Source: Streptomyces sp. NBC_01237
Lineage (GTDB): Bacteria > Actinomycetota > Actinomycetes > Streptomycetales > Streptomycetaceae
Assembly: GCF_035917275.1 (NCBI RefSeq)
Contig: NZ_CP108509.1
Location: forward strand, 558,001-622,000
DNA: 64,000 nucleotides
Direction of reading: 5' to 3'
Made by a program: the position numbers and the translations under genes. Within the stretch, counting starts at the first letter, position 1. Each line of letters begins with the position of its first letter. This document shows positions 15,668 to 57,205 of the stretch, in pieces. The notes below the pieces were generated by a model, which saw only the letters and a list, made by a program, of their open reading frames with translations, was not told the origin of the DNA and did no database searches.

Positions 15668-17191
15668 ATGACCCGTTACGCTGCGCCGGGCACCGAGGGC
15701 GCCATCGTCTCGTACGAGTCGCGCTACGACCACTGGATCGGCGGCGCGTACGTCCCGCCGGTCCGGGGCCAGTACTTCGAGAACCCGAGCCCCGTCAACG
15801 GCCGCCCGTTCACCGAGATCGCCCGCGGCACCGCCGAGGACGTCGAGCTGGCCCTGGACGCGGCGCACGCGGCGGCGCCCGGCTGGGGGGCGACCTCGGC
15901 GGGCGACCGCGCCTCGGTCCTGAACCGGATCGCCGACCGCATGGAGGCGCATCTGGAGGAGCTGGCGGTCGCCGAGAGCTGGGAGAACGGCAAGCCGGTG
16001 CGCGAGACGCTGGCCGCCGACATCCCGCTGGCCATCGACCACTTCCGGTACTTCGCGGGAGCGCTGCGCGCCCAGGAGGGCTCGCTCAGCCAGCTCGACG
16101 ACGACACCGTGGCGTACCACTTCCATGAGCCGCTGGGAGTGGTCGCGCAGATCATTCCGTGGAACTTCCCGATCCTGATGGCCACCTGGAAACTGGCCCC
16201 CGCACTCGCCGCGGGCAACGCGGTGGTCCTCAAGCCGGCCGAACAGACCCCGGCCTCCATCCACTTCTGGCTCACGCTGGTGTCGGACCTGCTGCCGCCG
16301 GGGGTCGTCAACATCGTCAACGGCTTCGGCGCGGAGGCGGGCAAGCCCCTCGCGTCGAGTCCTCGTGTCGCGAAGATCGCCTTCACGGGCGAGACGACGA
16401 CGGGGCGGCTGATCATGCAGTACGCCTCCGAGAACATCAAGCCGGTGACTCTGGAGCTGGGCGGCAAGTCGCCGAACATCTTCTTCGACGACGTGTCCTC
16501 GTCGAACGACGACTTCCTGGACAAGGCCCTCGAAGGCTTCACCATGTTCGCCCTCAACCAGGGCGAGGTGTGCACCTGCCCCTCGCGTGCGCTGATCCAG
16601 CGCGGGCACTACAACGAGTTCCTGGAGGCGGGCATCGCCCGCACCGAACAGATCGTTCCGGGGCACCCCCTGGACACCGCCACGATGATCGGTGCCCAGG
16701 CGTCCAACGACCAGTTGGAGAAGATCCTTTCGTACCTGGACATCGGACAGCAGGAGGGCGCGAAGATCCTGACGGGCGGCCGGCGTGTCGAGCACGGAGG
16801 TGAGTTGGAGGGCGGCTACTACGTCCAGCCGACGATCTTCGAGGGCGACAACCGGATGCGCGTCTTCCAGGAGGAGATCTTCGGCCCGGTGGTCGCGGTG
16901 ACGTCCTTCACCGACTTCGACGACGCCATCGCCACGGCCAACGACACGCTGTACGGCCTCGGCGCCGGCGTGTGGACCCGGGATGGCAACACCGCCTACC
17001 GGGCGGGCCGCGCCATCAAGGCGGGCCGGGTATGGACGAACTGCTACCACGCGTATCCGGCACACGCCGCGTTCGGCGGGTACAAGCAGTCGGGCATCGG
17101 CAGGGAGAACCACAAGATGATGCTGGAGCACTATCAGCAGACGAAGAACCTCCTGGTGTCGTACTCGCCGAAGAAGCTGGGCTTCTTCTAG
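15668..17191 (+). CDS. NAD-dependent aldehyde dehydrogenase (AldA/ExaC-like)
   Basis: A full-length 507-residue aldehyde dehydrogenase. Seen are the [19 protein letters not shown] cofactor motif, the catalytic Glu block [12 protein letters not shown] and the catalytic Cys in GEVCTCPSR. The C-terminus [21 protein letters not shown] is nearly invariant in the ExaC/acetaldehyde-dehydrogenase subgroup that oxidises acetaldehyde and other short aldehydes. It lies 166 bases downstream of the GAF regulator and is followed by a strong hairpin terminator, so it appears to be the last gene of the ordinary chromosome before the island. Confidence 0.95.
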
Positions 17192-17200
17192 ACACAGAAA

Positions 17201-17240
17201 AAGGGCGCCTGACCAGGTGTTTTACCCGCCAGGCGCCCTT
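17201..17240. terminator. terminator hairpin after aldehyde dehydrogenase; also next to the island edge
   Basis: An 11-bp perfect inverted repeat (AAGGGCGCCTG and CAGGCGCCCTT) with an 18-base loop lies 10 bases after the stop. A-rich and T-rich flanks on both sides make it usable for both the dehydrogenase and the convergent integrase gene. Part of it matches an inverted copy at 61277-61294 and a direct near-copy at 19325-19339. Confidence 0.8.
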
Positions 17241-17351
17241 CATGCCACGCATCCAGACCGTGGAGCGAGATGCGAGGTAACTCCCCATATCTCCCACCCC
17301 TGTCCCACCTCTGACCAGCTGTTCCGGGGCATTTCCGGGCCAGGACCGGGC

Positions 17352-18743
17352 TCATGTGTCCCGTGCGGTGTCTTCCGGCCCTTCCCACCGCCGCATCGAC
17401 TCCTCTATCAAGGTGTTGGCATGATTCTGCGCTTCGGCCAGGAATTTGGCGTAGTAGCGAAAGAGCACCTGGATACTCTGCCCGGCCCGACGCGCGCACT
17501 CCGCAGGGTCGACACCCGAGGCAAGCCAGAACGAGATTCCTGCGTGACGCAGGTCGTAGGGACGTTTCACCAGCTCAAGGGCATGCTCGTCGAGGGTGAG
17601 CGCCGCCTCGCGTGCCCGTCCCCACGTGATGCCGTACGCCGAAGCGTCAAGGTAGTTGCCGGCGGCATTGCGGAACATACGTCCGTCGGGGGCAACACCG
17701 AAATTCTCTATATGCTCGCGAAGCATGCGGACAAGCGCGGGCGGGATCGGCACCGGCCGCGTCGCCTTGGCTGCACGCCGTTTCAGCGGGTGGACCTCGT
17801 GGACGGCGCCGTCATCAGTCCACTGCTTCCCTGCCGTCACGACCCCGCCCTTAAGATTGAGGATCCCCCACCCACCCGCCGGCAGGCGGCACTGAGACTT
17901 CTGCAAGTGGATGACCTCACCAGGACGCATGGCTGCGTAGTACATGCAGCCGAAGAAGGCGTACAGGTGCGGGCCGCGACCGGGCAGTGCCTTGACAGCG
18001 GCAAGCAGGCGGCCCACCTGCGCCGGGTTGGGTACGCAGTCCGGATCGACCTCGTCGGCGACCTCCGGCCCAGACCATCGCAGACCACCCAATGGGTTCT
18101 GGCTGAAGTACCCCCGCTCCACCGCAACGCCGAACACCTCGTTCACCGCGGCCTTCTTGCGCTTCACGGTCTTTGCGGCAGCGGCTGTCCCATCGACCCT
18201 GCGGCACAACGCGTCGAGGCCCCGGCGCAGCACGTCGGGTTCCTCCAACTCGCCGACGGGCAGCGAGTGACGCCGCAGCCAGTCCAGCGCAGCCTGCCAC
18301 TCCTCGGGCGGGTCTTCCTGCCAGGCTTTCTTGTTGAATGCCCACGAGTACAGCGCCCGCCGCAGTTCGTGAGGCGCCCGGGATACGAACTCTGGCTCAA
18401 CAAAGGCTGGAGTGATGGTCGCGAGGGCGTCGGCCAGCGTTCGGCGTGTATTGCCCGGCGTGCGATCCCACCGCTGCTCGATGTATTCCCTCGCCAGGTC
18501 ATACCATGTCGTGCGTTGCTTCAGAGCTCTAAGCTCGGAGGCAGGCAGACCGGTCCTTACATCGAACGGCTCCCCGTCGCGCGCAGCGGTGAGGATCTTG
18601 GAACGTCGGCTCTCCGCAAGTCCTTTCGTGAGAAATGACTCAGATTTCTCCCGCCCATCGACCGTCCAGCGAACCTCGAAGCCATTGCGTCGCTCGGGCC
18701 GCTCACGGATCTCCCAAAACCGGACTCTGTAACTCATCGCCAT
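17352..18743 (-). CDS. tyrosine site-specific integrase
   Basis: A 463-residue phage-type integrase. The N-terminal 110 residues are an AP2-like arm-binding region (VRFWEIRERPERRNGFEVRW), followed by a SAM-like core-binding domain and the catalytic domain. Catalytic residues seen: Arg in YYAAMRPGEV, the R-H pair in RPYDLRHAGISF, and Tyr in LFRYYAKFL. The usual GH(S/T/K) third-box histidine is replaced by Gln (ARRAGQS), so activity deserves a check. The start overlaps the upstream excisionase-like gene by 10 bases. The gene runs toward the chromosomal boundary, as in many integrative elements. Confidence 0.92.
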   Translation of the reverse strand: MAMSYRVRFWEIRERPERRNGFEVRWTVDGREKSESFLTKGLAESRRSKILTAARDGEPFDVRTGLPASELRALKQRTTWYDLAREYIEQRWDRTPGNTRRTLADALATITPAFVEPEFVSRAPHELRRALYSWAFNKKAWQEDPPEEWQAALDWLRRHSLPVGELEEPDVLRRGLDALCRRVDGTAAAAKTVKRKKAAVNEVFGVAVERGYFSQNPLGGLRWSGPEVADEVDPDCVPNPAQVGRLLAAVKALPGRGPHLYAFFGCMYYAAMRPGEVIHLQKSQCRLPAGGWGILNLKGGVVTAGKQWTDDGAVHEVHPLKRRAAKATRPVPIPPALVRMLREHIENFGVAPDGRMFRNAAGNYLDASAYGITWGRAREAALTLDEHALELVKRPYDLRHAGISFWLASGVDPAECARRAGQSIQVLFRYYAKFLAEAQNHANTLIEESMRRWEGPEDTARDT

Positions 18744-19524: not shown

Positions 19525-20301
19525 TCACGCCGCCGCGTAGCCCTCGCAGAACAGGTCCAAAGCACGCTCAAGTTCCAGTTCGACCCGCAAATGCACCTCT
19601 AGGTCGCCCGTGCCGTGGTGCCCCAGCTCCGTCACGTGCCGGGTGAACCCAGGCACAAGGTCGAGTTTCTGCGGATCCACCTTCACATAGACGAGAAGTT
19701 TCGTCCTTTGCGGCGGGCAGAAGCAGGCAAAGTTCCGCAGGCGCTGATAGGCCCGGTACTGCCTGCGCTGGACACAGTTCACGTCTCCGAGACTGAGCAA
19801 CGCCTCACCGACAGCCTCGGCCAGCTCCTCCATCGCCCCGGCCCGCCCCTGAGACACCTGGAGCACACCCCCGCGCCGGTGCTCGCGCACGGCAAGGGCG
19901 TCATAGCGCGTGAAGTCTCCGGCGATACAGATCAGCCTCGGACCGCTCCACAGCACCTGAGCCGCGGCCATCGCCCCAATTCGCTCGCGGACCAGACACT
20001 CGAACTCCACCCGGTGATCCATCAACCACGACAGGTAGAACAAGCCCTGGTTGACGACGCCCGCGTCCGTGCTGCTCTTGTACTCAACGACGACCGGTGA
20101 ACCGCTCGCGTCGAGACCGAGCGAGTCGATCCGACCACCGTGGACCAGCCCCGTACTGTACTCGCTCGCCAGGAAATGGAAACCCAGCAGCATCTCCATA
20201 TCCGCCTCGAAGAGACGCTGCACATCGGCCTCGACGTCGGCAAGGCTCGGCACAATCTCGGTCACGCCGCCTTTCGTGTTGAACAGTTTCAGGCCCGACA
20301 C
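19525..20301 (-). CDS. DUF5655-like protein with PD-(D/E)XK nuclease-type core, copy 1
   Basis: A 258-residue soluble protein starting at GTG 20301 behind a GGAGGGG site. The middle has the pattern LASEYSTGLVHGGRIDSLGLD followed by GSPVVVEYKSS: an aspartate, then E-x-K at the end of the next strand, as in NucS/RecB-like endonuclease folds. The following blocks GVVNQGLFYLSWLMDHRVEF and WSGPRLICIAGDFTRYD are diagnostic of the DUF5655-containing group. The DNA target is unknown. A second copy with high similarity lies at 59928-60803 in the same orientation. Confidence 0.75.
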   Translation of the reverse strand: MSGLKLFNTKGGVTEIVPSLADVEADVQRLFEADMEMLLGFHFLASEYSTGLVHGGRIDSLGLDASGSPVVVEYKSSTDAGVVNQGLFYLSWLMDHRVEFECLVRERIGAMAAAQVLWSGPRLICIAGDFTRYDALAVREHRRGGVLQVSQGRAGAMEELAEAVGEALLSLGDVNCVQRRQYRAYQRLRNFACFCPPQRTKLLVYVKVDPQKLDLVPGFTRHVTELGHHGTGDLEVHLRVELELERALDLFCEGYAAA

Positions 20302-21469: not shown

Positions 21470-22287
21470 TCACAAGGGGATTTTGGCGAGTTTCTTGTAG
21501 CAGATCAGGGTGGCGGCGAGGCCAAGGAAGGCGAGAAAGTGGCTGCCTTTTCGTTCGTACCGGACGGTGAGGCGGCGGTAGCCGAAGAGCCAGGAGATCG
21601 ACCGCTCGATCTTCCAGCGATGCCGTCCGAGCCGCTCACCCGACTCGATACCGGGGCGGGCGATCCGTGCGACGAGGTTCCGACTGCGGAGCCAGCGGAG
21701 GTGCTCTGCGGAGTAGTACGCCTTATCCGCGCGGATCTTCGCTGGCTTCCACCGGCGTGGCCCGCGCCGGGAACGGACGGCGGGGATGCCGAGAATTAGC
21801 GGCTTGAAAGCCTGGCTGTCGCGCATGTTCGCCCCGGACACCGCGACGGCCAGCGGCAGGCCCTGAGCCTCGGACAGCACGTGCAGTTTGCTGCCCTTCT
21901 TCCCGCGATCGACCGGATTCGGCCCGGTCAGCGTTCCCCCCTTTTCGCCCGCACCGACGCGGCATCGACGATCGCAGACGACCAGTCCAGCCCGCCCCGG
22001 ACGCCGAGTTTGTCCAGCACCGCCCGATGCAACCCGCGCCACAGCCCGGCCTCGGTCCACACGGTGAACCGACGGTGCGCGGTGGCCGACGAGACCCCGA
22101 ACGACTCCGGTAGATATCGCCATGCACACCCGCTCGTCAGCACGTACACCACGGCCGTGAACACTGCCCGCTCGTCCACCGGAGCAGTCCCCCCACCTTG
22201 CGGGCGGGACTTGAACCTTGGCAGCAACGGAGCGGTCAGCTCCCACAGTTCGTCCGGCACCAACCGACGCGACAAGCTAACCTTCAC
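21470..22287 (-). CDS. IS5-family (IS427 group) DDE transposase, expressed by -1 frameshift
   Basis: Two overlapping frames: orfA (22287 to 21928, 119 aa, starting MKVSLSRRLVPDELWELTAP) and orfB (to 21470). The join is the slippery run GCGAAAAGGGGGGAA at about 21936-21950: frame A ends ...AKRGER-stop, and a -1 shift continues as KGGTLTGPNPVDRGKKGSK. The DDE set is visible as the Asp of SAIVDAAS, the Asp of KIRADKAYYS and the Glu of RWKIERSISWL with the downstream R/K. Both frames look intact, so the transposase is probably functional. Confidence 0.88.
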
Positions 22288-23246: not shown

Positions 23247-23636
23247 TCAGTCGCCGCTCGTCCTGATCTGCGCTCCGTGTTCATTGCGCTCGTATGTACG
23301 CCGCTCGTTCTTCTCGACCTTTCGGGCCACTTCTGCTTCGAGGTCGAGCCCGTTCATTTCCGCCAAGGCGGTCAGGTAGAGGAACACGTCGGCCAGCTCT
23401 TCGCCAAGATCGGGCAGCCCTTTGCGCCAGGCAGTGAAGGCTTCACCGACTTCAGCCGTAAGGAGACCGAACTCCAAAGCCACGTCGGTGGTGTTGAACC
23501 CCTTGAGGGTCTTGTTCTCCCAGGCGAGCTTCTGGGCAGCTCCGATCTCCAAGACTCCTCCAGCGGCGGTACAGCAGGTGCCCTGGAAGCCTAGCGGGAG
23601 TGTTGTGCCGGCGTGTTGGCTTCGGCGAGCCATCAC
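23247..23636 (-). CDS. MazG-like nucleotide pyrophosphohydrolase
   Basis: A 129-residue protein whose residues about 28-115 match the MazG-like/dUTPase-helical superfamily: AQKLAWENKTLKGFNTTDV, then acidic Mg-binding residues E62 and E65 (TAEVGEAF) and E79, E80, D83 (GEELADVFLYL). These enzymes cut non-canonical or specific NTPs to NMP plus PPi. The first 27 residues have no family match, so translation might start later. The start overlaps the end of the kinase gene by 4 bases, making this the last gene of the seven-gene operon. Confidence 0.82.
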   Translation of the reverse strand: MMARRSQHAGTTLPLGFQGTCCTAAGGVLEIGAAQKLAWENKTLKGFNTTDVALEFGLLTAEVGEAFTAWRKGLPDLGEELADVFLYLTALAEMNGLDLEAEVARKVEKNERRTYERNEHGAQIRTSGD

Positions 23637-24133
23637 CCTGTCGATCGGAGATCGAGGAACGAAGTATCGAGCGTGAGCACATGGGTGTATTCAGCGAGCG
23701 TGGAGAAGATCCTCTCGTAGCCTGTCACCAGAGTTGAGACCTCTTCCAGGCCGACGGCCTCGCCATCCCGTGACAGAAGCCGCTGGTGAATGAGGGCAGG
23801 CGGCGCGGTCAGGTGAACGAGCACGCCGGATCTCGCGATAACGCTCTCGGCCAGGTCGATCGCCTGGGTCCAGTTGATCCTGGAGCGCCCCCGGTAAAGC
23901 GGGCCGTAGACCAGTTCGCTGATGAAGCACCGATCGAAGAGGATCCTCCCGCCCTGGGCGAGGATGGCCCTGTAGCGGCTGGGCAGGTCGAGGTGGTCGG
24001 GAGTCCTCGGGGAGTGCACTACGACGAAGCCGTGGTGCGACGACAGGCTCTCGCCGAGTGTGCTCTTACCGACTCCGTCACAACCTTCCAGAACCACGGT
24101 CTGGTACTCGCCGGCGATCTCTTCGAGGTTCAT
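23633..24133 (-). CDS. thymidylate-kinase-like P-loop kinase
   Basis: A 166-residue P-loop kinase. Walker A is GCDGVGKST (residues 17-25). The next conserved element, GGRILFDRCFISELVYG, is the D-R-(x) motif of thymidylate kinase-like enzymes, and LVHLTAPPALIHQRL is the lid-adjacent LxxPxxxxxxR block. It is shorter than Tmk (about 210 aa) and lacks part of the lid, so its substrate may not be dTMP; deoxynucleoside-monophosphate kinase activity is an inference. It is coupled at both ends through 4-base overlaps. Confidence 0.82.
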   Translation of the reverse strand: MNLEEIAGEYQTVVLEGCDGVGKSTLGESLSSHHGFVVVHSPRTPDHLDLPSRYRAILAQGGRILFDRCFISELVYGPLYRGRSRINWTQAIDLAESVIARSGVLVHLTAPPALIHQRLLSRDGEAVGLEEVSTLVTGYERIFSTLAEYTHVLTLDTSFLDLRSTG

Positions 24134-25083
24134 GTGGCCAGCCACGACAGGACGGATTCGCCGTTGTCGAGGTGCGCGTCGGCAGCGTACTGGATCATGA
24201 GATTTCGCCAGTTGGGCTCGCGGCCTTGAGCATGGGTGTACGTCATCCGTGGCTGGAAGGCCGCGATCCTTACGCCACTGGCCAGAGCAGCACCGATGAG
24301 CAAGGCGGTACCCGGTGGTGTCTCGGGGCCGGAGACGTCGACCAACAGCCGGGCTGCCGAGCGCACCGCGGTCAGGTCGGCCAGCGCCCCTGCCATTAGG
24401 TCCGACGCGGTGAAGCGCTGGGGCACCACTACAGTGTGACCGGCGTCCACACAGGCTTGGGCCAGCTGGTCCTGGCCCCACGCCGTGTACGGCGACGCCT
24501 CGACGTACACGGGTGTACCGATAGTTCTCGGAGGGCACGCGGGGAGGCGGGCGTGGTTTGGGAGGGTGAGCAGGGCGTCGACGGCTGCGTCGAGGGCCGT
24601 GTTCGTCTGAACCACGTTGCGTGTCTGGAAGTCCTGGAACCGCGACCGGCCCGGAGCCGGCGGCAGAGGCGGTGTTCCGAGGCTGTCCACGCGCACGATG
24701 CGGGTGGCCACGGCCTGGAGGAGGGGGTCGGGGAACTCGAGATGGGTGCCGGCCTCGGTCATCGAGTAGGTCTGGAAGTCGGTGGTGAGCACGACGACAG
24801 GAATGCCGGAGGCGGCGGCGTATCCGATCTCCATGCAGACCCCGTCGTCGAGGCTCGGACCGTGCAGGATGGCGATCATGGCGCCGAGGCGGCTCAGGCG
24901 TCTGCGGTCAAGCTCGAACAGGCGGCGCCCCTTGACCTCGGCGACGAGGTCCTCCTCGTCGGTGTCGCAGAACGGCAGGAAGACGCGATCGGGACCGGCC
25001 TTCGCGGCAAGTCGGTCGGCGAGGTCGGCAGCGAGAGCGCGATCGTGGGCCGCGAAGAGCCGGTGGGCTATGTAGACGGACAT
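24130..25083 (-). CDS. tandem nucleoside 2-deoxyribosyltransferase-like protein
   Basis: A 317-residue protein with two Rossmann-like NDT/DRHyd domains. Domain 1 (1-105): SVYIAHRLF, then LGAMIAILHGPSLDDG and VCMEIGYAAASGIPV, with Glu85 in the place of the catalytic nucleophile of nucleoside deoxyribosyltransferases. Domain 2 (about 190-302): TPVYVEASPYTAWG, then LLVDVSGPETPPGTALLIG, where the nucleophile position is Leu261, so it looks degenerate; the REPNWRNLMIQYA tail is family-like. Such proteins transfer or hydrolyse the N-glycosidic bond of (deoxy)nucleosides or nucleotides. Domain duplication with one dead half suggests a structural or sensing role for domain 2. Confidence 0.82.
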   Translation of the reverse strand: MSVYIAHRLFAAHDRALAADLADRLAAKAGPDRVFLPFCDTDEEDLVAEVKGRRLFELDRRRLSRLGAMIAILHGPSLDDGVCMEIGYAAASGIPVVVLTTDFQTYSMTEAGTHLEFPDPLLQAVATRIVRVDSLGTPPLPPAPGRSRFQDFQTRNVVQTNTALDAAVDALLTLPNHARLPACPPRTIGTPVYVEASPYTAWGQDQLAQACVDAGHTVVVPQRFTASDLMAGALADLTAVRSAARLLVDVSGPETPPGTALLIGAALASGVRIAAFQPRMTYTHAQGREPNWRNLMIQYAADAHLDNGESVLSWLAT

Positions 25084-25108
25084 CGGGAGAGGCCCCCAAG
25101 TCGGTAGG

Positions 25109-25927
25109 TCAGCCGCGTCGGGGCGCGGGGATTGGAAGGGACGGGGCCGCGACGTACCTGGCTGCGGCTGCTGTCGCCTCCGCCAGGGCCTGGGCGGTTG
25201 TCGCACCGCGTGAGCGGTGGGCCAGGAAGGTCCCGGCCAAGGTGTCACCGGCGCCGGAGACCTCGTGCGCAGGGTACGGTGGCGGAACGGCAGAAGCAGA
25301 CGTACGCCCGAAGTTGCGGACCACTACGGCCCGGGGACCGTCGGTGATGACCACCTCCGGCAGCGTGCCGCAGTCGATCGCCTGTTCCAGGAGCCGGTAC
25401 TCGGCGGTGTTGAGGAACAGAGTGGTCGCCTTCGGCAGCCATGGGGCGGCTGCACGGATCATCGCTTCTGCACTCGGTAGGAAGAAGTCCACGCTGAAGT
25501 CGGCTGCGTTCGAGGTGAGTCGGCCGAGCACTGCCGCCACGTCCAGCGGGCGGCGGCAACAGACGTGGAAGGTAGCGCGCGGGTGCGCGTCCACGTGCCC
25601 GAGAGCGTGCTCGGTCAGGATCTCGGCCACGCCGTACTCTGTGCCCACCCTCATCAGCTCGCCCTGCAGGTCGTACTCCAGGTCGAAGGTCGTGGAGGTG
25701 CCGTCGGCCTGGAGCCGTGCTGACCAGTCGAGCGAGTCCAGGCCCGGCGTCTCGGGCAGGTGTGCGAGATCGTTTCCGAGGACGCAGACCGGGGCTGCCC
25801 GGCGGCCGGACTTCGTCGCCGCCAGCGATACGAACAGGGCCGCGCCGCCGAGCCGGGAACCACCACGGTGGTCGGGGTAGCGGGTCAGGTCCCGGCTGAT
25901 GTTGCCGATCACGTCGAGCCGTTCCAC
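25109..25927 (-). CDS. PfkB-family sugar/nucleoside kinase
   Basis: A 272-residue ribokinase-fold protein starting at GTG 25927 (GGGGGAG upstream). N-terminal DVIGNISRDLTRY is the first strand, SRLGGAALFVSLAATKSG is the di-glycine motif, and EVSGAGDTLAGTFLAH contains the anion-hole and catalytic GAGD (D228). It is slightly shorter than typical PfkB enzymes (about 300). The substrate could be a nucleoside, as adenosine and pseudouridine kinases belong here, or ribose; the neighbouring NDT-like gene favours a nucleoside or the released sugar. Gap to the next gene is 25 bases. Confidence 0.87.
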   Translation of the reverse strand: MERLDVIGNISRDLTRYPDHRGGSRLGGAALFVSLAATKSGRRAAPVCVLGNDLAHLPETPGLDSLDWSARLQADGTSTTFDLEYDLQGELMRVGTEYGVAEILTEHALGHVDAHPRATFHVCCRRPLDVAAVLGRLTSNAADFSVDFFLPSAEAMIRAAAPWLPKATTLFLNTAEYRLLEQAIDCGTLPEVVITDGPRAVVVRNFGRTSASAVPPPYPAHEVSGAGDTLAGTFLAHRSRGATTAQALAEATAAAARYVAAPSLPIPAPRRG

Positions 25928-25943
25928 GGTCTCCCCCAAGGGA

Positions 25944-26768
25944 TCAGGCAATCCGGGTCGGGTGTGCGCAGCCGATGACCTTCGTGCAGACCGGTCGCTG
26001 GCGGCAGAGCTGTGGGGAGGCACCGTTGAGGTACAGGCGCTTGAAGTAGATCAGGACGAGGTGCACCCACCAGGTCGGCTCCACTCCTTCCGGGATCGCG
26101 ACCCGGTACCCGTTGGCGGTGGCCAGGGAACGGAGGTCGGTCGAGCGGGCGTGTACGGCGGCTTCAAGGACGTGCCGCATCCGTTCGTGCGCTACGGCGC
26201 CCGACGGGAGGGTGATGCCCAGGACGGGTGCCAGCTTGGTGACCATGCCGGAATCGACCGGGATGATGCCGCAGTGGTACCCGCGGGCGGTGAGCAGTGC
26301 GCACTGGGCGACCTTGTAGGACGCACCCCGCACCCGCGTGGCCAAGTCGAGGACCAGGGCGTCGAGATTGGCCGACTCCGCAGTCGGGTCGACCCCTTCC
26401 TTCTCCCAGTTCTGTAGGAGCTCGGCGAGGGAGCGCATGTAGTCGATCCGGGTCTGTGGCAGGCCGATGGGGCGTACCAGCGCCTCCAGTTCGGCGTCCG
26501 TGCCCGTGACGAGGCTGTCGAAGCCACGGGTATCCGCTGATGTGATCACTCGGGCGTATGTTTCCACCATTCGGTAGGAGATCCGGGTGGACCAACCGGC
26601 GGCGAGCATCCGTACCCGTGGGTCTCTGATCGAGGTCGGCCACCACCGGTTTTCGTCGTGGTTGGCCTCCACCTCGGCCCGCACGTCCGGCAGGCTGGCG
26701 GCTCGGACAATCAACCGATGGACACGCCGGATCTCAAGTGGTGTTGGTTTTGCGCGTTCGATCGTCAT
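25944..26768 (-). CDS. HhH-GPD/endonuclease III-like protein
   Basis: A 274-residue helical protein. The block VRGASYKVAQCALLTARGYHC followed by IIPVDSGMVTKLAPVLG aligns with the helix-hairpin-helix and catalytic loop of EndoIII/MutY-type DNA glycosylases, with K152 at the catalytic Lys and D172 at the catalytic Asp position. The C-terminus has three closely spaced cysteines (C255, C261, C267 in LCRQRPVCTKVIGC), like a modified 4Fe-4S loop although the spacing is not canonical. So a base-excision activity on DNA, or a related base-binding fold, is likely. It overlaps the racemase-like gene by 4 bases. Confidence 0.72.
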   Translation of the reverse strand: MTIERAKPTPLEIRRVHRLIVRAASLPDVRAEVEANHDENRWWPTSIRDPRVRMLAAGWSTRISYRMVETYARVITSADTRGFDSLVTGTDAELEALVRPIGLPQTRIDYMRSLAELLQNWEKEGVDPTAESANLDALVLDLATRVRGASYKVAQCALLTARGYHCGIIPVDSGMVTKLAPVLGITLPSGAVAHERMRHVLEAAVHARSTDLRSLATANGYRVAIPEGVEPTWWVHLVLIYFKRLYLNGASPQLCRQRPVCTKVIGCAHPTRIA

Positions 26769-27487
26769 GGACCAACTCCAGCAGGGGCTCGGGTGGCATG
26801 AAGGGCCATGGCGAGGTTGGACGAAATTACCGGCTTGCCGAACCGGTGCTCCAGTTCGGCGACTGCTGCCAGGGTGTGCCACCCGGTGCAAGACAGGACT
26901 ACCGCTCCGGCAGCCTCGACGGCGGCCTCCGGCAGCTGCTCCACTAGGGCAAGGATCTGGTCCGGGGGGACTTCGGGGTAGCCATCGGTCAGGCCCAGAC
27001 TCGCGTGGGCCAGGACCTCCATACCGGCCTCGTTCAGCGCCGCAGCTTCCGCTTCGGTCACCGGAGTGGGGTAGGGCGTGACGAGAACCACACGTGCCAC
27101 GGCCGCGTCGGTCAGAGCCCACAGGAGGGCGTCGAAGGCGGTGACCACTCCGCTCGGCAGTGGCGGGCCGTCGGTGAAGCCCGCCGACGTGCACGCCAGC
27201 ATCACCGTGTCGAGCGGGATGTGCGACAACGAGTCCAGCGCATGAACCGATGCCTCGCGCAGTCCGTGCCAGAAGGAGGTGTCGATCGCCGTCGTCCTGG
27301 ATGCGGGCACGAGCCGTGCGTGGTGGAAGACCGTGTGGCGCAGGCCGAGGCGGGGCAACTCGGTCTCCACGGCCACGTTGGCCCAGGGCAGCAGCATGCC
27401 CGCACGGACGGTGCCTTCCGCGGCCGCTTCCAGAGCAGCCAGTTTCGCGAGTGTCCCGTCAGGCAGGGGATGCAACGCGTTCTCCAA
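26765..27487 (-). CDS. Asp/Glu/hydantoin racemase-superfamily protein
   Basis: A 240-residue protein with the two-cysteine architecture of the aspartate racemase/maleate isomerase/arylmalonate decarboxylase superfamily: C99 in VMLACTSAGFTDG and C200 in VVLSCTGWHTLAAV. GMLLPWANVAVETELPRLG at the N-terminus resembles the maleate cis-trans isomerase subgroup. The natural substrate is unclear: it could be an amino acid, a dicarboxylate or a hydantoin-like ring from base breakdown. The start lies inside the 3' end of the radical SAM gene (29-base overlap), so translation is coupled. Confidence 0.78.
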   Translation of the reverse strand: MENALHPLPDGTLAKLAALEAAAEGTVRAGMLLPWANVAVETELPRLGLRHTVFHHARLVPASRTTAIDTSFWHGLREASVHALDSLSHIPLDTVMLACTSAGFTDGPPLPSGVVTAFDALLWALTDAAVARVVLVTPYPTPVTEAEAAALNEAGMEVLAHASLGLTDGYPEVPPDQILALVEQLPEAAVEAAGAVVLSCTGWHTLAAVAELEHRFGKPVISSNLAMALHATRAPAGVGP

Positions 27488-28979
27488 AGATCATGCGCGG
27501 CGAATGACCGGTGACCACCAGATCTCCGGTAGTCCCCAGGGGCACTCGAGCGCTGCGCTCGATGACCTGGATGGAGTACGAGCCCAATCGCCGCCAATAG
27601 GTACCCTCCTCGCTGATGAAGTAGGAGTGCAGTCCCGGCACGCGCAGGCCGGTAGGGTAGATCCGCTCTTTCATCGGCTGATCCCAGGTGAAGTCGATGT
27701 CCGCCTTCCACGACGCGAAGTGCTCGGCCGACGGCAGCGGCTCCGGCTCGTTGAGCGAAGCAAGCGGGGTACCGGGGAAGGCTCTCGCCAGGCGTACGTT
27801 CGTCCGGTGGCACAGCAGGCCGGCGTCGAGTATCCCGGCCAAGCCTCGAAGGTTCGCCACGTGAGTGTTGTGAGTCTCCCCGGGGAGACCGTAGATCAGG
27901 TTCAGGCCGGGGAGGAGCATCGGCAGACCACCGGGGCCGCGGGCTGCGCCTGCCTCGTTCACATGCCCGATGGCACGCATCAGAATGTCGGGCGTGCAGG
28001 TGAGGGTGTTGCGCTCAATAACAGCCGGGTCGAAGCTCTCGATGCCCATCGGCGCGCAGTTGCCCTCGGTGCAGAAGTCCGCCACCAGCTTCGCGATGCG
28101 TAGCCCGACGGGCGCGGCCACGGCGAGGGGGTCCGCGTTGTCGATGTGGAGCACCTCCAGTTCGGGGCAGCACTCGCGGATGCCGCTGAGCAGGGCGCGA
28201 ATCGCGGTCTCGTCCCGATGACGGTAGGAGAAGAAGCAGGTCTGTTGGCCGAGGCGGAAGTTCCGAATGCCAGCTGCGTAGAGCTGGGCGGTCTCGGCCA
28301 CGACGTCGTCAACCTCGCGGAAGGCGACGAGAGGCGATTTCGTCGGTTCGTTGCAGAAGTCACAGAACTTGCGTCGGGTGCAGCCGCGGTACAGCTCCAG
28401 CTCGGCGATCGGACGCCAGGGCATCTGCTCGACGAGGCCGGTGAACGAGTCGCGTTCGAGACGCATCTGCTCGTAGCCGGCCGGGCGTCGGCTGCCAAGC
28501 AGAAGGTCACCGGACGTCACGGTATGGGTATGAACAGCGTCGAACAGCCCCGCGTACTCCGCAGGCGTGGCTAGGGCGTAGGCGGACAGCGGCCCGAGCA
28601 GGTAGCGACGGCCGCGCGTGCAGGCGAGTGCGCGAGCAATCTCCTCGAACGATCCATTCACGGCGTGCAGGTGGACGGACGGGACCGCGTCTCCGGCGAT
28701 GACGATCACGATCGCAGCATCTCGCAGGAGCTGAATAGCGGTGTCCCGGTTGACGGTGGTCGAGTAAGTGAGCCGATCGCTTTGGGGCGGTTCGACGGTG
28801 GGCTTGCCTCCGGCCAGGCACCATCGGACATCGTCGATGGTCACGTACCGGACCTCTGCCTCCGGCCGGGCCTGTCGGAGTGCAGACCAGGCGTTCCGGA
28901 CGTAGGTCGACAGGTAGGGCGGTACGCCGAGGCCACTCGGCTCGACGGTGAAGCAGTCCAGGATCACTACAGGCTGCAT
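27459..28979 (-). CDS. radical SAM protein, first gene of the nucleotide operon
   Basis: A 506-residue protein: an N-terminal B12-binding-like Rossmann region (1-180, VPPYLSTYVRNAWSALR), a radical SAM barrel, and a TRAM-like C-terminus (LGTTGDLVVTGHSPRMIFGE). The cluster cysteines lie in YRGCTRRKFCDFC (C200, C206, C209), so the spacing is C-x5-C-x2-C instead of the standard C-x3-C-x2-C. The rest of the barrel has LRIAKLVADFC and NLIYGLPGET, as in MiaB/YgiQ-like enzymes. ATG 28979 follows GGAGGGA. The reaction is unknown; a methylation, methylthiolation or ring rearrangement of a nucleoside or peptide are options. Confidence 0.85.
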   Translation of the reverse strand: MQPVVILDCFTVEPSGLGVPPYLSTYVRNAWSALRQARPEAEVRYVTIDDVRWCLAGGKPTVEPPQSDRLTYSTTVNRDTAIQLLRDAAIVIVIAGDAVPSVHLHAVNGSFEEIARALACTRGRRYLLGPLSAYALATPAEYAGLFDAVHTHTVTSGDLLLGSRRPAGYEQMRLERDSFTGLVEQMPWRPIAELELYRGCTRRKFCDFCNEPTKSPLVAFREVDDVVAETAQLYAAGIRNFRLGQQTCFFSYRHRDETAIRALLSGIRECCPELEVLHIDNADPLAVAAPVGLRIAKLVADFCTEGNCAPMGIESFDPAVIERNTLTCTPDILMRAIGHVNEAGAARGPGGLPMLLPGLNLIYGLPGETHNTHVANLRGLAGILDAGLLCHRTNVRLARAFPGTPLASLNEPEPLPSAEHFASWKADIDFTWDQPMKERIYPTGLRVPGLHSYFISEEGTYWRRLGSYSIQVIERSARVPLGTTGDLVVTGHSPRMIFGERVASPA

Positions 28980-29105
28980 ATGGGTCTCCCTCCAGCGCTG
29001 AGGGTTTCGGCGGTGTTCCAGCGGCGTCTTCGCCGGGAAGAGCCGCGGGCCCCAGAGCGCATTCATTGTCGGCGCTGGCAGGGCCTTGGGAGGAGAGGGC
29101 AACGG

Positions 29106-29129
29106 GGTTGTCCGGTTGTACGGGGGTTG
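29106..29129. promoter_or_regulatory. three GGTTG repeats between divergent radical SAM and regulator genes
   Basis: In the 213-base divergent intergenic region GGTTG occurs three times in 24 bases (29106, 29114, 29125), each after G or C. Its position, about 65-85 bases before the regulator start and 125-150 before the radical SAM start, fits an operator for the HTH/TPR regulator at 29193. No direct evidence. Confidence 0.3.
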
Positions 29130-29192
29130 CATCTCTGTGGCGCTGTGTCGGAAGGCTGGGACGCAGGGTGATCTGCAAGGCATCATCTACAC

Positions 29193-30578
29193 ATGGGCAG
29201 TTCAAAGGCGAGCAGTGAGAACAACGCCGCGTTCGCGGCGGTGCTCACGGAGGCCGGTTCTTCACACGCCGCTTTGGCTCGCAAGGTCAACGAACTGGGT
29301 GCGCTGCAGGGCGTGGTGTCCCGCTACGACAAGGCGTCGGTGACCCGGTGGCTACAGGGTATGACCCCGCGAGGCCGCGCCCCGGAGTTCATTGCCGCTG
29401 CCCTGGCAGGGTTCTTAGGCCGATCCATTTCCCCTGTTGACATCGGTTTCACAGATCAGCACCAGAGACCTGTGGTCGCAAGGGCCTTGACGTACCGTGA
29501 AGATGTGGGTGAAACACTTCATACGCTCGCGGAGCTCGGTTCGACCGATATCTCGCGACGCAGTCTCCTCGGCGCGGTTCCGTACGTCGCGACGGCTCTT
29601 TTGGACCCTCAACGGCATTGGTTGCTTTGGCTCCTGGAGGACGAGCAAGCCTCCCGGCTCGCTGTAGTGGCTGGCGGCGGCCCCGTCGAGCAGGTCCAGG
29701 CGATGATCGAGATGTTCGACGAGATGGACAATCGCTTCGGCGGTGGTGGTGTGCGGGCGAGCATCGTGCACTATCTGAGCACCGAACTCGCACCCATGCT
29801 GCAGCAGCGCAACCTTTCCTCGGGCCAGCGCAGACTCCTGTACACCTCGGCTGCCAAGTTGGGGGCAATGGCTGGTTGGTGCTCGTACGACGCCGCCGAC
29901 TACGGGCTCGCGGAGCGCTACATGATCCAGGCGCTGAGGCTGTGCGCCGAGGGCGGAGACCGCGTGCTCGGCGGGCAGATCCTAGCTGGCATGTCGCACC
30001 TCGCCACCAGCCTGGGCAACCCCGCCGAAGGAGTCTCGCTAGCGAGAGCGGGTATCGCGACAGCCAAGTCGGTGGGCAGCCCGCTCGGGCTCATGCGCTT
30101 GTACGCCATGGCCGCCCGCGGGTACTCCGCCCTGGGCGACTCCCAGCGCGCGACGGCATCCCTCCTGGAAGCCCACAAGAACCTGGAGGTCAGCCGGGGC
30201 CCCGCCGAGGAGTCGCCGTGGGTTCGCTTCCTGGACCACCACTATCTGGAAGCCGAGGCGGCCCTGGTCCACCGCGACCTCGGCGAAGCCGCAGAGGCCG
30301 AGCACCTCGCCCGGGCGTCAGTCAAGGCGAACGGCGACCGCCGCCGCCGGCAGGCCATCAGCCGCTCGGTGCTCGCGACGGCGTTCCTTCAGCAGAACAG
30401 GTTGGACGAGGCGGTCGACACTGCGAGCAACGCCGTGGACCTGCTCGCCGGAGTGCACAGCGAACGGTCCGTCCAGGCTCTGCGCGACTTCCGTGCACGT
30501 CTTACTCCTCACCAAGGCGAGTCCATCGTCCGCGACTTCGAACGAAAGGCCCGGCCGATTCTCGGTACAGCTGCCTGA
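29193..30578 (+). CDS. HTH/TPR transcriptional regulator (NsdA-like)
   Basis: A 461-residue protein. The N-terminal 80 residues form a Streptomyces-type HTH (SHAALARKVNELG, then DKASVTRWLQGMTPRG). The rest is a superhelix of tetratricopeptide-like repeats (such as ADYGLAERYMIQALRLCAEGG and AEAEHLARASVKANG). This architecture is that of NsdA and many pathway-linked regulators of Streptomyces, in which TPRs sense a peptide, protein or small molecule. It is divergent from the seven-gene operon, so it is its most likely regulator. Confidence 0.85.
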   Translation: MGSSKASSENNAAFAAVLTEAGSSHAALARKVNELGALQGVVSRYDKASVTRWLQGMTPRGRAPEFIAAALAGFLGRSISPVDIGFTDQHQRPVVARALTYREDVGETLHTLAELGSTDISRRSLLGAVPYVATALLDPQRHWLLWLLEDEQASRLAVVAGGGPVEQVQAMIEMFDEMDNRFGGGGVRASIVHYLSTELAPMLQQRNLSSGQRRLLYTSAAKLGAMAGWCSYDAADYGLAERYMIQALRLCAEGGDRVLGGQILAGMSHLATSLGNPAEGVSLARAGIATAKSVGSPLGLMRLYAMAARGYSALGDSQRATASLLEAHKNLEVSRGPAEESPWVRFLDHHYLEAEAALVHRDLGEAAEAEHLARASVKANGDRRRRQAISRSVLATAFLQQNRLDEAVDTASNAVDLLAGVHSERSVQALRDFRARLTPHQGESIVRDFERKARPILGTAA

Positions 30579-30587
30579 AGCTCCCGG

Positions 30588-31397
30588 TCAGTATCCTTCG
30601 GGCGTCGGCGCGTTCTGGCCCTTGTCGACGGGCAGGTTGATCCCGGTCACCGCTCGCGACTGGTCCGAGAGCAGGAAGGCGATCGCGTCTGCCACCTCCT
30701 CCGGCCGCACCAGTTCTCTCCCCGGGAACTCCGTTCGGAATCGGTCGAAGGCCGACGGGTCCTCCCGGCGCATCCGGTCCCAGCGCTTTCCGGGGATGAG
30801 CATCGATCCGGGCGAGACCGCGTTCACGCGAATGCCATCCGTAGCCAGCTCCCTGGCCAAGGACGACACCATGTGGATCTGGGCCGCCTTCGCCGAGCCG
30901 TACTGAGCCTGCGGGCCGGGCTTCCACCCGGAGACCGAGGCCACGACGACGATCGACCCGCCACCGGCCGCTCGCAGGTGCGGGGTGGCCACCGCGATCA
31001 GCCGGGCGACATGGCCAACGTTCAACTCCCAGGTCGCCGCCCAGTCCTCCGCTGTCGCCTCGGTGATTCCCCTCCCTCGCGCACCGCCCGCACACGCGAC
31101 AACCCCGTCCAACCCTCCCAGCGCTGAGGCGGCCTCCTCGACAAACCGCTCCAGCAGTTCCGGCGCGGAGACGTCCAGAGTCCGGGTGAATAGAGCAGTC
31201 GGCACATCGAGCGAACTGCGCAGCGCTTCCAGCGGCTCGGGCTTCCGGGCGCATGTCGCCACCCGCGCTCCTTCGGACAGGAGCAAGCGCACGATGTGTT
31301 CTCCCAGCCCTCTGGAGCCTCCCGTCACCACAATTCGGCGGCCCGCGAACTGTCCAGTCGCCGCCCGCTGCCCACCGGTATGTCCTGCATCAGTCAT
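30588..31397 (-). CDS. SDR-family NAD(P)-dependent oxidoreductase
   Basis: A 269-residue classical short-chain dehydrogenase. TGGSRGLGEHIV is the glycine motif, ELNVGHVARL the N-N motif region, VASVSGWKP carries the catalytic Ser, and YGSAKAAQIHM has the Y-x3-K pair. The C-terminus ends normally (GRELVRPEEVADAIAFLLSD, then ITGINLPVDKG). It is convergent with the regulator (9-base gap) and divergent from the ATP-binding protein. Substrate not predictable; the FabG-like fold is certain. Confidence 0.92.
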   Translation of the reverse strand: MTDAGHTGGQRAATGQFAGRRIVVTGGSRGLGEHIVRLLLSEGARVATCARKPEPLEALRSSLDVPTALFTRTLDVSAPELLERFVEEAASALGGLDGVVACAGGARGRGITEATAEDWAATWELNVGHVARLIAVATPHLRAAGGGSIVVVASVSGWKPGPQAQYGSAKAAQIHMVSSLARELATDGIRVNAVSPGSMLIPGKRWDRMRREDPSAFDRFRTEFPGRELVRPEEVADAIAFLLSDQSRAVTGINLPVDKGQNAPTPEGY

Positions 31398-31602: not shown

Positions 31603-32112
31603 ATGTGCCAGAGCATCACCGCCCCCAGGGCTCCTGACTGGATGGACGTCAAGCACGACTCGAAGTGGAACCCTGCCACCGCCACCGTCGAGACTGCGGC
31701 TGCGACGGATCCGGGGCCGGGGCCACTGGCATCACGTGCCTTTGAGGTGGTGATGAGTCCGGATCCGGTTCGCGTCCCGCAGATACGGCACGTCACAGCA
31801 GCGGTCATGCGGAACTGGGCTGTACCCATTCCCCTGGCGCAGGATGTGGGACTCGTCGTATCCGAACTCGTCACGAACGCGATCGAGCACGGCCTCGGGA
31901 CTGTCTGCCTGCGGGTGTGGCAAGGCCCTGGTGAACTCCACGTCGAGGTCGCCGACGACAACCCGGCCCCCGCCCGGCTTCGTGCCGCCGGCGACGAAGA
32001 GGAGTCCGGCCGCGGACTGTTCTTGGTCGCCGATCTCGCTCGGGGCTGGGGCGTGAGGGACGGCGGTCGAACCACTTGGGCTACGTTGCGAGCCCCTTCG
32101 GATATCCCATGA
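31603..32112 (+). CDS. ATP-binding anti-sigma/RsbW-like HATPase_c protein
   Basis: A 169-residue GHKL ATPase domain protein of the type very abundant in Streptomyces. N-box: VGLVVSELVTNAIEHG; G1 box: ELHVEVADDNPAPA; G2: EESGRGLFLVADLARGWG. This is the serine-kinase anti-sigma-factor fold. Start ATG 31603 was selected as the nearest start in frame after a GAGGCCAG stretch; the true start might be at a later methionine. The stop overlaps the ATG of the next gene, so both are coupled. Confidence 0.85.
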   Translation: MCQSITAPRAPDWMDVKHDSKWNPATATVETAAATDPGPGPLASRAFEVVMSPDPVRVPQIRHVTAAVMRNWAVPIPLAQDVGLVVSELVTNAIEHGLGTVCLRVWQGPGELHVEVADDNPAPARLRAAGDEEESGRGLFLVADLARGWGVRDGGRTTWATLRAPSDIP

Positions 32113-40908: not shown

Positions 40909-42714
40909 GTGCACACTCCGACCAACTCCAATCGGCTCACGCCTTCGGAACCGACAGCCCCTCAGGCATTGAGCGTTCCGCTCGACGGAACCATCGAGAG
41001 CATCGTCACGCGCATGGCCCACTTGGACGAGCAGTGCGGGGGACCGGCCCCGGCCCCGGTGCTAGCACTGGGTATCTTCGAGCGGGTCGGCTCGAACTGG
41101 CTTTCCGACTCGCTGCGCGGGGCGATGCCGCAGCACAACGAGCCCTTTCGCCAGCAGCTCGGCCGCGAACACCCGCTATCACCCGGCAACCGCATCCCGC
41201 CGAGCCTCCAGGGAACCGGTCTCAGCGGCTTGGGCCTGCACCAGCTGCTGTGCGCGCTCGGCGACCTGCACGGCCACCCCCGGCACCTGGTCAAAGAGAC
41301 GAACCTGTTCTTCGCCGTGGACACCGTCCTGGGAATGCTGCCCCAATCACCGGTTGTCGTCCTCACCCGGGCCCCTATCGGCATCGCTTCCTCATTCGCC
41401 CGTGGGCGGCTCTGGGACCGGTGGCGCTACGGCGACCGGTACGCACAGGTCGCCGCGACGGCCCGCGCACCGCGCTGGCGCACAGCTTTCGCCCCGCTCC
41501 TTCCCGATGACGACCCCGACCCGTCCACCGCCCTGGGACGCCTGATCACTGTGAACGCCCTTCTTCTGTCCCGCGCCTTGCACGAGGGGCCCCCTGCCTC
41601 CCGCCCCTGCCTGGTCATCCCGTATGAACAGCAAGTCAGCGACCGGCCCCGCACAGAGAACGACCTCGCCCGGTTCCTGAACATCGAAATGCCGAAACTC
41701 AGGAATGTGCCGCTGATCACCACCGGCACCACGGCCGCGTCGGACACAACGTTCGCCACCATCGGGCGCAAGGACGCCCTGGTCGCCGAACTGGCCCCCG
41801 GCACCGCAGAACTGGTCATCACCGCGGTTGACAAGACCCTCGCCCAGGCCCGTCGTCTGCTCGCCCCCGAGGTCACGGAGGCCGCCGCCCAATGGCTTAC
41901 CCGTAACGACCAGTACGAGGTGCACGAACCCACGCCACGGCCCATCCGCCGGGCCCGGTCGGAACCCACTTTTCAGAGGATGCCCAAGCCGGCGTACAGG
42001 CCGGTGGCAGGAACCCAGTGGCGCAACTTGCTGGTCACCAATACGGAAATGGCCGAGCTGCTGACCATGCTGCACGCGGGCGGTGCAGCGAACTCCCGTC
42101 TGGGCACCAACCTGCTGGTTTGCCCGATGCCCCACGAGCGTGGCGGGCGCCTCCACTACGACCAAGCCGATCGGCGGTGGCGGATCAGCCGAGGATACGA
42201 ACAGCATCCCGCGTACTGGGTCACCTGGATCGGAGCAGCATTCATGGCGGCGTGGTGCGGAGCGCGCCTGCCCACCCGCACCGAAGCACTGCAGGCGGCA
42301 AAGGGAGCGCGGGCGCACAACAGCGACTACGTAGCGGGCGACAGTTGCCCCGTTGCGGAACCCGGGCTCGGCGACCGGGAGGTCCACCACCTGATCGGCA
42401 ACGTGCAGGTCTGGTGCGGCGACGGTCCCGATCAGCCTGAATCACGGCCCGTGCAGAAGTACTTGTTCGGTGCTGCGTGGAACACACCGGGCACCGAGGA
42501 GGCGGTGACTGCCGTCCGCTCCCGCTATCTGCTCGGCTCCTCGCGTGGCGTGGGTGTCCGCCTGGTGCGCGACGCCCACACCACGGACGCCGCACGGCTA
42601 GGGGCCTGGGAGCTGGCGCACCGGCTCAATCAGTGGGTCGCCGCCGCCGACAGCTCCGCCCAGGCCACGCCGGGCGGGCTCGACCGTCTGCTGCTCAGCA
42701 CGTTCGGGTCATAG
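40909..42714 (+). CDS. sulfotransferase-SUMF1-like fusion protein
   Basis: A 601-residue protein from GTG 40909 with AGGAGG at 40897-40902. Residues about 48-300 look like a PAPS-dependent sulfotransferase: LGIFERVGSNWLSDSLRGAM is the 5'-PSB loop, LVKETNLFFAVDTVL and VVVLTRAPIGIASSFARGR are the 3'-PB strand and helix with the conserved Arg and Ser. Residues about 395-580 resemble the FGE-sulfatase/SUMF1 C-type-lectin fold: YWVTWIGAAFMAAWCGARLP, GNVQVWCGDG and GAAWNTPGT, ending SRGVGVRLVRD. The cysteine pair of true FGE is not evident. Sulfation of a metabolite or glycan is inferred. Confidence 0.75.
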   Translation: MHTPTNSNRLTPSEPTAPQALSVPLDGTIESIVTRMAHLDEQCGGPAPAPVLALGIFERVGSNWLSDSLRGAMPQHNEPFRQQLGREHPLSPGNRIPPSLQGTGLSGLGLHQLLCALGDLHGHPRHLVKETNLFFAVDTVLGMLPQSPVVVLTRAPIGIASSFARGRLWDRWRYGDRYAQVAATARAPRWRTAFAPLLPDDDPDPSTALGRLITVNALLLSRALHEGPPASRPCLVIPYEQQVSDRPRTENDLARFLNIEMPKLRNVPLITTGTTAASDTTFATIGRKDALVAELAPGTAELVITAVDKTLAQARRLLAPEVTEAAAQWLTRNDQYEVHEPTPRPIRRARSEPTFQRMPKPAYRPVAGTQWRNLLVTNTEMAELLTMLHAGGAANSRLGTNLLVCPMPHERGGRLHYDQADRRWRISRGYEQHPAYWVTWIGAAFMAAWCGARLPTRTEALQAAKGARAHNSDYVAGDSCPVAEPGLGDREVHHLIGNVQVWCGDGPDQPESRPVQKYLFGAAWNTPGTEEAVTAVRSRYLLGSSRGVGVRLVRDAHTTDAARLGAWELAHRLNQWVAAADSSAQATPGGLDRLLLSTFGS

Positions 42715-55937: not shown

Positions 55938-57205
55938 TACTCGATCTCTTCGCCGGGCCGGGCGGGTGGAGCCGGGCGCTGACCGTGCTCGGCGTCCGCG
56001 ATGTCGGCCTGGAATGGGACGAGTGGGCGTGCAAAACTCGTGTGGCGGCTGGTCAGTTGACGCTGCGGACCGACGTCGCGATGTATCCGACGTGGCCGTG
56101 GATCGGGCGGACCGTGGGCGTGATCGCCTCTCCGCCCTGTCAGGCGTGGAGCATGGCCGGCAAACGCCTCGGCCTGGTGGACCAGCCCCTGGTCCACCAG
56201 GCCGTCGAGGACCTGGCCGCCGGCCGCGACACCCGCGAGCGGCTCCTTGCCGCCTGCCGTGATCAGCGTTCGCTGCTGGCGGCCGAGCCCATGCGCTACC
56301 TCCACGCCCTGAACACGGCCGGACAGCCGGAGTGGATCGTCATGGAGGAGGTCCCTGATGTTCTGCCTCTGTGGAAGCAGTACGCCGTCATCCTGCGGCG
56401 TTGGGGGTTTTCCGTCTGGTGCGGCATTCTCAACGCCGCGGACTACGGGGTGCCGCAGACCAGGAAGCGGTCCATCCTTCTCGCTTCCCGGATCCGCACC
56501 GCACAGCCACCGGCACCGACACACGCCCACGTGCACGAGCCGGAGAGCCTGTTCGGGCCGGGCCGCGTCCGGTGGGTGAGCATGGCCGAGGCGCTGGGCT
56601 GGGGAGCAACCGACCGGCCCGTGCCCACCGTCTGCGCCGGCGGCGGGCCTGGAGGCGGACCTGAACCGTTTCCCTCCGGTTCCCGTAAGACACTGTCCGA
56701 CGCCCGCGACCGCGGCGCCTGGGAACCTCGGCACCAGGACACCGTCCGGCAGTCCCCCTGGGATAGTGCAGGTCAGGCGCCCCGGCACGGCATCCGCGAG
56801 GACCCCGCCTCAACTACTCCGGCTGCGAGATTCACCGCCGAGGCGCACCGCTGGTCCTGGTCCCTGCGCAACAACAGCCAGGCCAACTCCACCGTCAGAT
56901 CCATCGACGAACCGGCTGGCACCCTGTTTTTCGGCCACCGAGCGAACGAGTGCACCTGGGTCGCCCAGCCTCTCAACTCACCGATGCGGGACGCGGAATC
57001 GTCGACCTCTCCGGAGCCGATCAGGATCACCGCCCGCGAAGCCGGCCTGCTGCAGACCTTCCCTGCGGACTACCCCTGGGCGGGCAACAAGGGACAGCAG
57101 TTCTCCCAGATCGGCAACGCAGTCCCCCCACGCCTCGCCGCCCACCTGCTCGCCCCACACCTGAACATCCCCCTCAACCCCGACGACTTCACCCTGGCCG
57201 CCTGA
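55934..57205 (+). CDS. C5-cytosine DNA methyltransferase
   Basis: A 423-residue Dcm-type methyltransferase from GTG 55934. Motif I LDLFAGPGGWSRAL, motif IV VIASPPCQAWSMAG with the catalytic Cys (P-P-C-Q, 67-70), motif VI VMEEVPDVLP (E-E-V in place of E-N-V), motif VIII PQTRKRSILLA, and motif X FSQIGNAVPPRLA are all present. The target recognition region (about 200-350) is Pro/Gly-rich. No cognate restriction enzyme is adjacent, so this is likely an orphan protecting the element or a maintenance/anti-restriction enzyme. Confidence 0.93.
   Translation: MILDLFAGPGGWSRALTVLGVRDVGLEWDEWACKTRVAAGQLTLRTDVAMYPTWPWIGRTVGVIASPPCQAWSMAGKRLGLVDQPLVHQAVEDLAAGRDTRERLLAACRDQRSLLAAEPMRYLHALNTAGQPEWIVMEEVPDVLPLWKQYAVILRRWGFSVWCGILNAADYGVPQTRKRSILLASRIRTAQPPAPTHAHVHEPESLFGPGRVRWVSMAEALGWGATDRPVPTVCAGGGPGGGPEPFPSGSRKTLSDARDRGAWEPRHQDTVRQSPWDSAGQAPRHGIREDPASTTPAARFTAEAHRWSWSLRNNSQANSTVRSIDEPAGTLFFGHRANECTWVAQPLNSPMRDAESSTSPEPIRITAREAGLLQTFPADYPWAGNKGQQFSQIGNAVPPRLAAHLLAPHLNIPLNPDDFTLAA

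Follow-up and report, generated by a model that had tools for sequence, protein, structure and literature searches.

A seven-gene unit in Streptomyces and relatives

The 64,000-nucleotide stretch of Streptomyces sp. NBC_01237 DNA analysed here (positions 558,001–622,000 of NZ_CP108509.1, here C2, in a 10.19 Mb genome; hereafter the window) carries a seven-gene operon on its reverse strand (23247–28979). Reading from the upstream end, it encodes a radical SAM enzyme (27459–28979, 506 amino acids (aa)), an Asp/Glu-racemase-superfamily enzyme resembling maleate isomerase and arylmalonate decarboxylase (26765–27487, 240 aa, TTG start), an N-glycosidase of helix-hairpin-helix HhH-GPD fold (hereafter HhH; 25944–26768, 274 aa), a PfkB-family kinase (25109–25927, 272 aa, GTG start at 25927), a two-domain nucleoside 2-deoxyribosyltransferase-like protein (NDT; 24130–25083, 317 aa), a small P-loop deoxynucleoside/deoxynucleotide kinase akin to YorR and phage thymidylate kinases (23633–24133, 166 aa) and a MazG-type nucleoside triphosphate (NTP) pyrophosphohydrolase (23247–23636, 129 aa). 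Neighbours are spaced by −29, −4, +16, +25, −4 and −4 bases—overlaps, or gaps of at most 25 bases—in keeping with an initial annotation of the window that had described seven coupled genes.

Scanning named-genome contigs for the radical SAM protein returned 32 loci, a lower bound because the search patterns derive from one protein. All seven genes are recognisable, in unchanged order, in 27 of the 32, so that the conserved neighbourhood that the initial annotation had proposed looking for does exist elsewhere; three loci (L036, L037 and L050) stop at a contig end within the operon and two (L055 and L056) hold radical SAM remnants only. The 27 seven-gene loci come from Streptomyces, Kitasatospora, Actinacidiphila, Nonomuraea, Actinomadura, Actinoplanes, Thermoactinospora, Sinosporangium and metagenome-assembled genomes (including one Solirubrobacterales bacterium), with radical SAM identity to the window falling to 64%. 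The MazG gene is inverted in six of the 27 (L042, L044, L045, L046, L048 and L049).

Single-gene searches with four of the seven (radical SAM, HhH, NDT and racemase type) covered 200 genomes of the window's family, some of which also supply loci among the 32, so that the one count is not independent of the other. Radical SAM and HhH matches fall in the identical 11 genomes (own genome counted). NDT matches comprise these 11, the decayed partial operons of G154 and G085, and a single distant match (2.5e-7). The racemase family gives the same 11 at E ≤ 2.5e-92; remoter paralogues begin at 2.5e-30 and bring the total to 125 of the 200 genomes. In G154 the larger part of NDT and a piece of the kinase survive; G085 has kept almost the whole of the kinase and MazG genes next to a fragment of NDT, the front genes being absent from the 15 kb read. 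Separate occurrence of the genes, the outcome that the initial annotation held would speak against its reading, is therefore not seen for radical SAM and HhH among the four genes tested, and is seen for the rear genes standing alone in G085. In a class-level sample, one of 394 genomes was positive, namely the genome of origin.

For each of the 21 possible pairs among the seven families, the distance matrices are correlated (r 0.62–0.92, with 14–19 loci available per pair), and none of 999 permutations reached so high a value; shared species descent contributes to these figures and was not removed from them. The recurrence of all seven genes in one order in 27 of the 32 loci is more than chance would give.

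Folds and conserved residues of the seven enzymes

Protein searches returned 733, 405 and 428 clusters, of which the best 120 of each were considered; HhH proteins outside the operon may exist beyond the best 120. Residue counts below refer to chosen intact copies, broken ones standing outside the counts: 61 rows for radical SAM (window, 17 loci and 43 of the 120 listed proteins), 54 for HhH (window, 50 of the 120 listed proteins and three loci) and 16–20 for each of the other five families, from which fragments and doubtful starts (for example, PfkB of L030, L040 and L051) were excluded.

The radical SAM protein, as modelled, has a MiaB/RimO fold: an N-terminal Rossmann-like domain, the radical SAM barrel and a C-terminal beta-barrel. 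The 506-aa model aligns over 408–412 residues with 4jc0 and 7mjw, reaching model residue 504–505, and thus contains the methylthiotransferase architecture of N-terminal domain, barrel and TRAM-like C-terminal barrel. The B12-type enzyme MgmA tied in Z score (22.6, 348 residues) but covered the model only to residue 445. Methylthiotransferases (MiaB/RimO) carry three conserved N-terminal cysteines for an auxiliary cluster and a CX3CX2C radical SAM motif. The operon protein differs from MiaB, RimO and MtaB on both counts, at 14–15% identity. No cysteine is invariant within residues 1–190 (C9, 58/61, and C54, 55/61, are near-conserved only), the barrel motif is CX5CX2C (C200, C206 and C209), and five further invariant cysteines are present at 248, 303, 308, 328 and 390. 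An archaeal relative from Natronorubrum bangense (one sequence, 30% identity over 98%) shares the radical SAM triad but lacks the five extra cysteines, and has no operon around it. At that archaeal locus (L057:11977–14230) the gene is followed by a TRAM-domain gene. The actinomycete proteins bear the JGI name 'radical SAM superfamily enzyme with C-terminal helix-hairpin-helix motif', which we take to be COG1031; the term COG1031 is absent from the open-access papers that one literature search listed.

The HhH protein has the HhH-GPD glycosylase fold, with catalytic-type residues D172 (54/54) and K152 (51/54, asparagine in the remaining three), equated with the glycosylase Asp and Lys by secondary-structure position, not by superposition. 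EndoIII and other HhH-GPD DNA glycosylases are alike in fold and catalytic Asp, and Qng1 (DUF2419) may be so too. Unlike the DNA glycosylases, the protein does not keep the hairpin GxG (G148 32/54, S150 54/54; PGVGRKT in the genome's own EndoIII), and a C255-X5-C261-X5-C267-X-H269 motif (54/54) takes the place of the four-cysteine iron–sulfur loop. Against the own-genome EndoIII the family profile aligned only at residues 84–117, not reaching the hairpin region. Mainly because the DNA-binding hairpin is missing, the enzyme probably acts on free nucleotides, and the DNA glycosylase action assumed in the initial annotation becomes less likely.

Conservation extends to other families of the operon. 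The racemase-superfamily enzyme keeps N37, C99, Y139 and C200 (16/16 each), the PfkB-family kinase its GAGD motif (17/17) and MazG residues E62, E65, E79, E80 and D83 (18/18 each). NDT is a PF05014 member (73.6 bits against a cut-off of 28.8) with the catalytic Glu in domain 1 (E85, 19/19), which may act as a transferase or a hydrolase; domain 2 is weakly NDT-like and lacks this Glu, with a conserved C-terminal motif at residues 288–299.

A cassette on plasmids and a probable integrative element

At lower window coordinates than the operon, an aldehyde dehydrogenase gene has its 3′ end (17135–17342) repeated at C2:706215–706423 (209 bases, 93%, att-like), and an integrase-like gene adjoins the repeat (17352–18743; Pfam sub-threshold, E 9e-4). 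GC content within the window is 71.3% before this junction versus 67.8% after it. The cassette probably sits on an integrative element of ~131 kb, a stretch that may hold more than one element. In the relative G562, a 57-base core of the repeat is doubled ~8 kb downstream of the aldehyde dehydrogenase gene. No empty site was found: past the repeat, the right flank gave no alignment with the flanking sequence of any relative compared.

Both the radical SAM gene and the HhH gene are present in three plasmid records from Streptomyces. In two of them, the linear plasmids of NBC_01304 and NBC_01456, the annotated genes follow the layout of the operon: a radical SAM gene and two genes without names, then carbohydrate kinase and NDT, then another two without names. 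Radical SAM identity to the window is 84–85% in Sphaerisporangium versus 68–70% in Nonomuraea, Sinosporangium and Thermoactinospora, genera that we take to belong with it to one family. This closeness to the window suggests horizontal transfer of the cassette.

Several further features lie within the window. Between operon and integrase, two overlapping frames (21470–22287) are apparently an IS5-type transposase, pieces of which match L038 and L055. The gene starting SGLKLFNTKGGVTE is present in two copies 40 kb apart (19525–20301 and 59928–60803), and the repeat-bounded stretch also includes a C5 cytosine DNA methylase gene (55985–57205).

Regulator and flanking genes

Divergent from the operon lies an NsdA-family TPR regulator (29193–30578, forward strand; NF053720, 7.6e-112), matching the HTH/TPR regulator that the initial annotation had placed opposite the operon. 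A full-length relative (at least 66% identity) accompanies 13 of the 16 complete Streptomycetaceae loci, divergent and upstream in 12, downstream in L035; the other three have a fragment (L051), a 29% relative (L038) and none (L039). The divergent promoter region (28980–29192), a candidate operator, contains conserved CAACC direct repeats at about 29104–29130; a TGTCC..GGACA inverted repeat seen in relatives is imperfect in the window. An SDR oxidoreductase gene, convergent with the regulator (30588–31397, reverse strand), recurs in 13 of those 16 loci.

Comparing the window's called genes with 45 loci (L015–L059, duplicates included), only the seven genes, the regulator and the SDR gene recur widely. 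Matches of other called genes are confined to three that hit L030 (32–42%), one at the archaeal locus and the transposase pieces at two loci. Clusters of open reading frames (ORFs) found in at least five loci include many antisense frames; those identified outside the unit are tyrosine integrases (seven loci), an adjoining HTH-type gene (two members were scanned, and one has the HTH) and a HATPase_c_2-like gene near the SDR gene. The window's copy of the last (31753–32112, forward strand) has tblastn relatives in 9 of the 45 loci (34–41% identity) and is not counted in the unit. Neighbours of the deep-branching loci are mostly unrelated among themselves. No conserved transporter or resistance gene was identified around the copies, among recurring neighbour ORFs not all of which were identified.

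Three observations stand apart. No tRNA gene lies in the 64-kb window; a 601-aa protein (40909–42714) has an FGE-sulfatase match (8.9e-7) and a weak sulfotransferase match; and a VUT-family gene annotated for queuosine salvage occurs once, on a Streptomyces plasmid (L058:1908–2474), where ~10 kb separate it from the operon.

Proposed pathway and rival explanations

We class the operon as an orphan biosynthetic or nucleotide operon and infer the function of the package. The analysis establishes the unit and the co-inheritance of its genes, two fold predictions and the conservation of catalytic-type residues; what the enzymes act on, in which order and direction, and what they make are proposed as follows. 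MazG would cut an NTP to the monophosphate, and the HhH-fold enzyme, as a nucleotide N-glycosidase and not a DNA-repair enzyme, would release the base. The released base would be changed by the radical SAM enzyme first and the racemase-superfamily enzyme second, and the NDT-like enzyme would attach the changed base to deoxyribose or take it off. Phosphorylation of the nucleoside would fall to PfkB, that of the nucleotide to the small P-loop kinase. That the seven genes form a self-contained pathway under the control of the NsdA-type regulator, yielding a (deoxy)nucleotide with a modified base, is our tentative preference, held at somewhat less than even confidence. An internal nucleotide—a signal, antimetabolite or precursor—is the probable product, favoured because no conserved transporter was identified. 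The fuller version, a novel closed base-swap pathway on a mobile cassette under an NsdA-type switch, in which a canonical nucleotide is dismantled, its base rebuilt by radical chemistry and an unknown non-canonical (deoxy)nucleotide returned as internal signal or weapon, is rather doubtful as a whole. The initial annotation had read the genes as able to remove a base, phosphorylate and hydrolyse an NTP, which holds at family level (as base removal or exchange); its reading as one unit is supported, its pathway reading stays plausible and is sharpened, and its phage-defence component finds no support.

Several findings weigh against this pathway. EndoIII, a DNA enzyme, is the best fold match of the modelled HhH protein among the families listed. 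The rear genes of G085 are the clearest case of separated genes; with PfkB shortened in L051 and the radical SAM gene split by a frameshift in G066, this damage means that not every copy need work as a whole. Fusion of NDT and kinase into one open frame (473 aa; L035:13872–15293, Actinacidiphila oryziradicis) is known from one assembly only. Two copies have a single MFS gene nearby: immediately upstream in L035, and at a distance of a few kb, also upstream, on the NBC_01304 plasmid.

Prokaryotic viperins set a precedent for chain-terminating or poisonous nucleotides, and the cassette could be a viperin-like anti-phage system in which glycosidase and MazG protect the host itself. Its location on plasmids, probably on an integrative element and near integrase-type ORFs in seven loci, its patchy spread and the pairing of a radical SAM enzyme with nucleotide kinases would fit. 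Yet the phage defence that the initial annotation had raised found no positive sign in PADLOC, neighbours or phage records. PADLOC-DB 2.0 gave no full-length match for any of the seven proteins; below E 0.01 only the kinase matched (PDC-M51B, 8.2e-9; VakA, 1.2e-7), best over its P-loop (residues 13–42), the racemase-type protein had a marginal Cas3b match (E 0.066) and the remaining proteins none. The 123 neighbouring proteins at 27 loci matched 48 PADLOC families at E 1e-10 (no control set); of 25 of these families, mad2 has four members and 24 have one each, largely overlapping methyltransferase models with one or more pPIWI-type models. Pfam integrases account for five of the 123. When 50,697 phage records were queried with radical SAM, HhH, NDT and kinase, the first three had no match at E 1e-5. 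We consider an anti-phage role unlikely.

Sanitation of DNA bases and the nucleotide pool would assign the same enzymes otherwise: HhH excising a modified base from DNA, MazG and NDT destroying the matching deoxynucleoside triphosphate, monophosphate or nucleoside, the kinases recycling, and radical SAM enzyme and racemase detoxifying the base. The hairpin GxG expected for DNA binding is not conserved, however (S150 54/54), and a patchy spread of 11 in 200 genomes is unlike housekeeping repair; we consider this reading about as unlikely as the anti-phage one. Lower still we place an RNA-base system, in which the MiaB-like-fold radical SAM enzyme would modify a tRNA base and HhH salvage it from turnover nucleotides, much as Qng1 does with queuine; against it stand the lack of a conserved N-terminal cysteine triad in the radical SAM protein and the NDT, YorR and dCTPase-like relatives, which indicate deoxy compounds.

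Comparison with known systems

Searches of the open-access literature brought up no paper on this gene set, as judged by title (subscription journals lie mostly outside their coverage), in agreement with the earlier view that the operon is not a described system. A conserved mobile seven-enzyme unit for which no described function was found is a good lead towards a new nucleotide, natural product or signal. Its radical SAM enzymes form a subfamily distinguished by additional invariant cysteines, and its HhH-fold enzyme, lacking the hairpin that binds DNA, would show how a DNA-repair fold was redirected to nucleotide metabolism. The spread is nearly all-or-none, so gene deletion coupled to metabolomics would be directly interpretable.

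Two known settings invite comparison. Nucleoside antibiotic clusters use the NDT-like hydrolases MilB and BlsM, and like the operon bring NDT-like and radical SAM enzymes together; the operon differs in that its surroundings yielded no conserved gene for tailoring, transport or resistance, and no open-access paper matched. From the phage thymidine hypermodification pathways the operon is set apart by its HhH and radical SAM proteins, which have no match in PHROG (up to E 0.1) or the phage records. With these pathways it nevertheless has three components in common: a P-loop kinase, an HhH-type protein and radical SAM enzymes.

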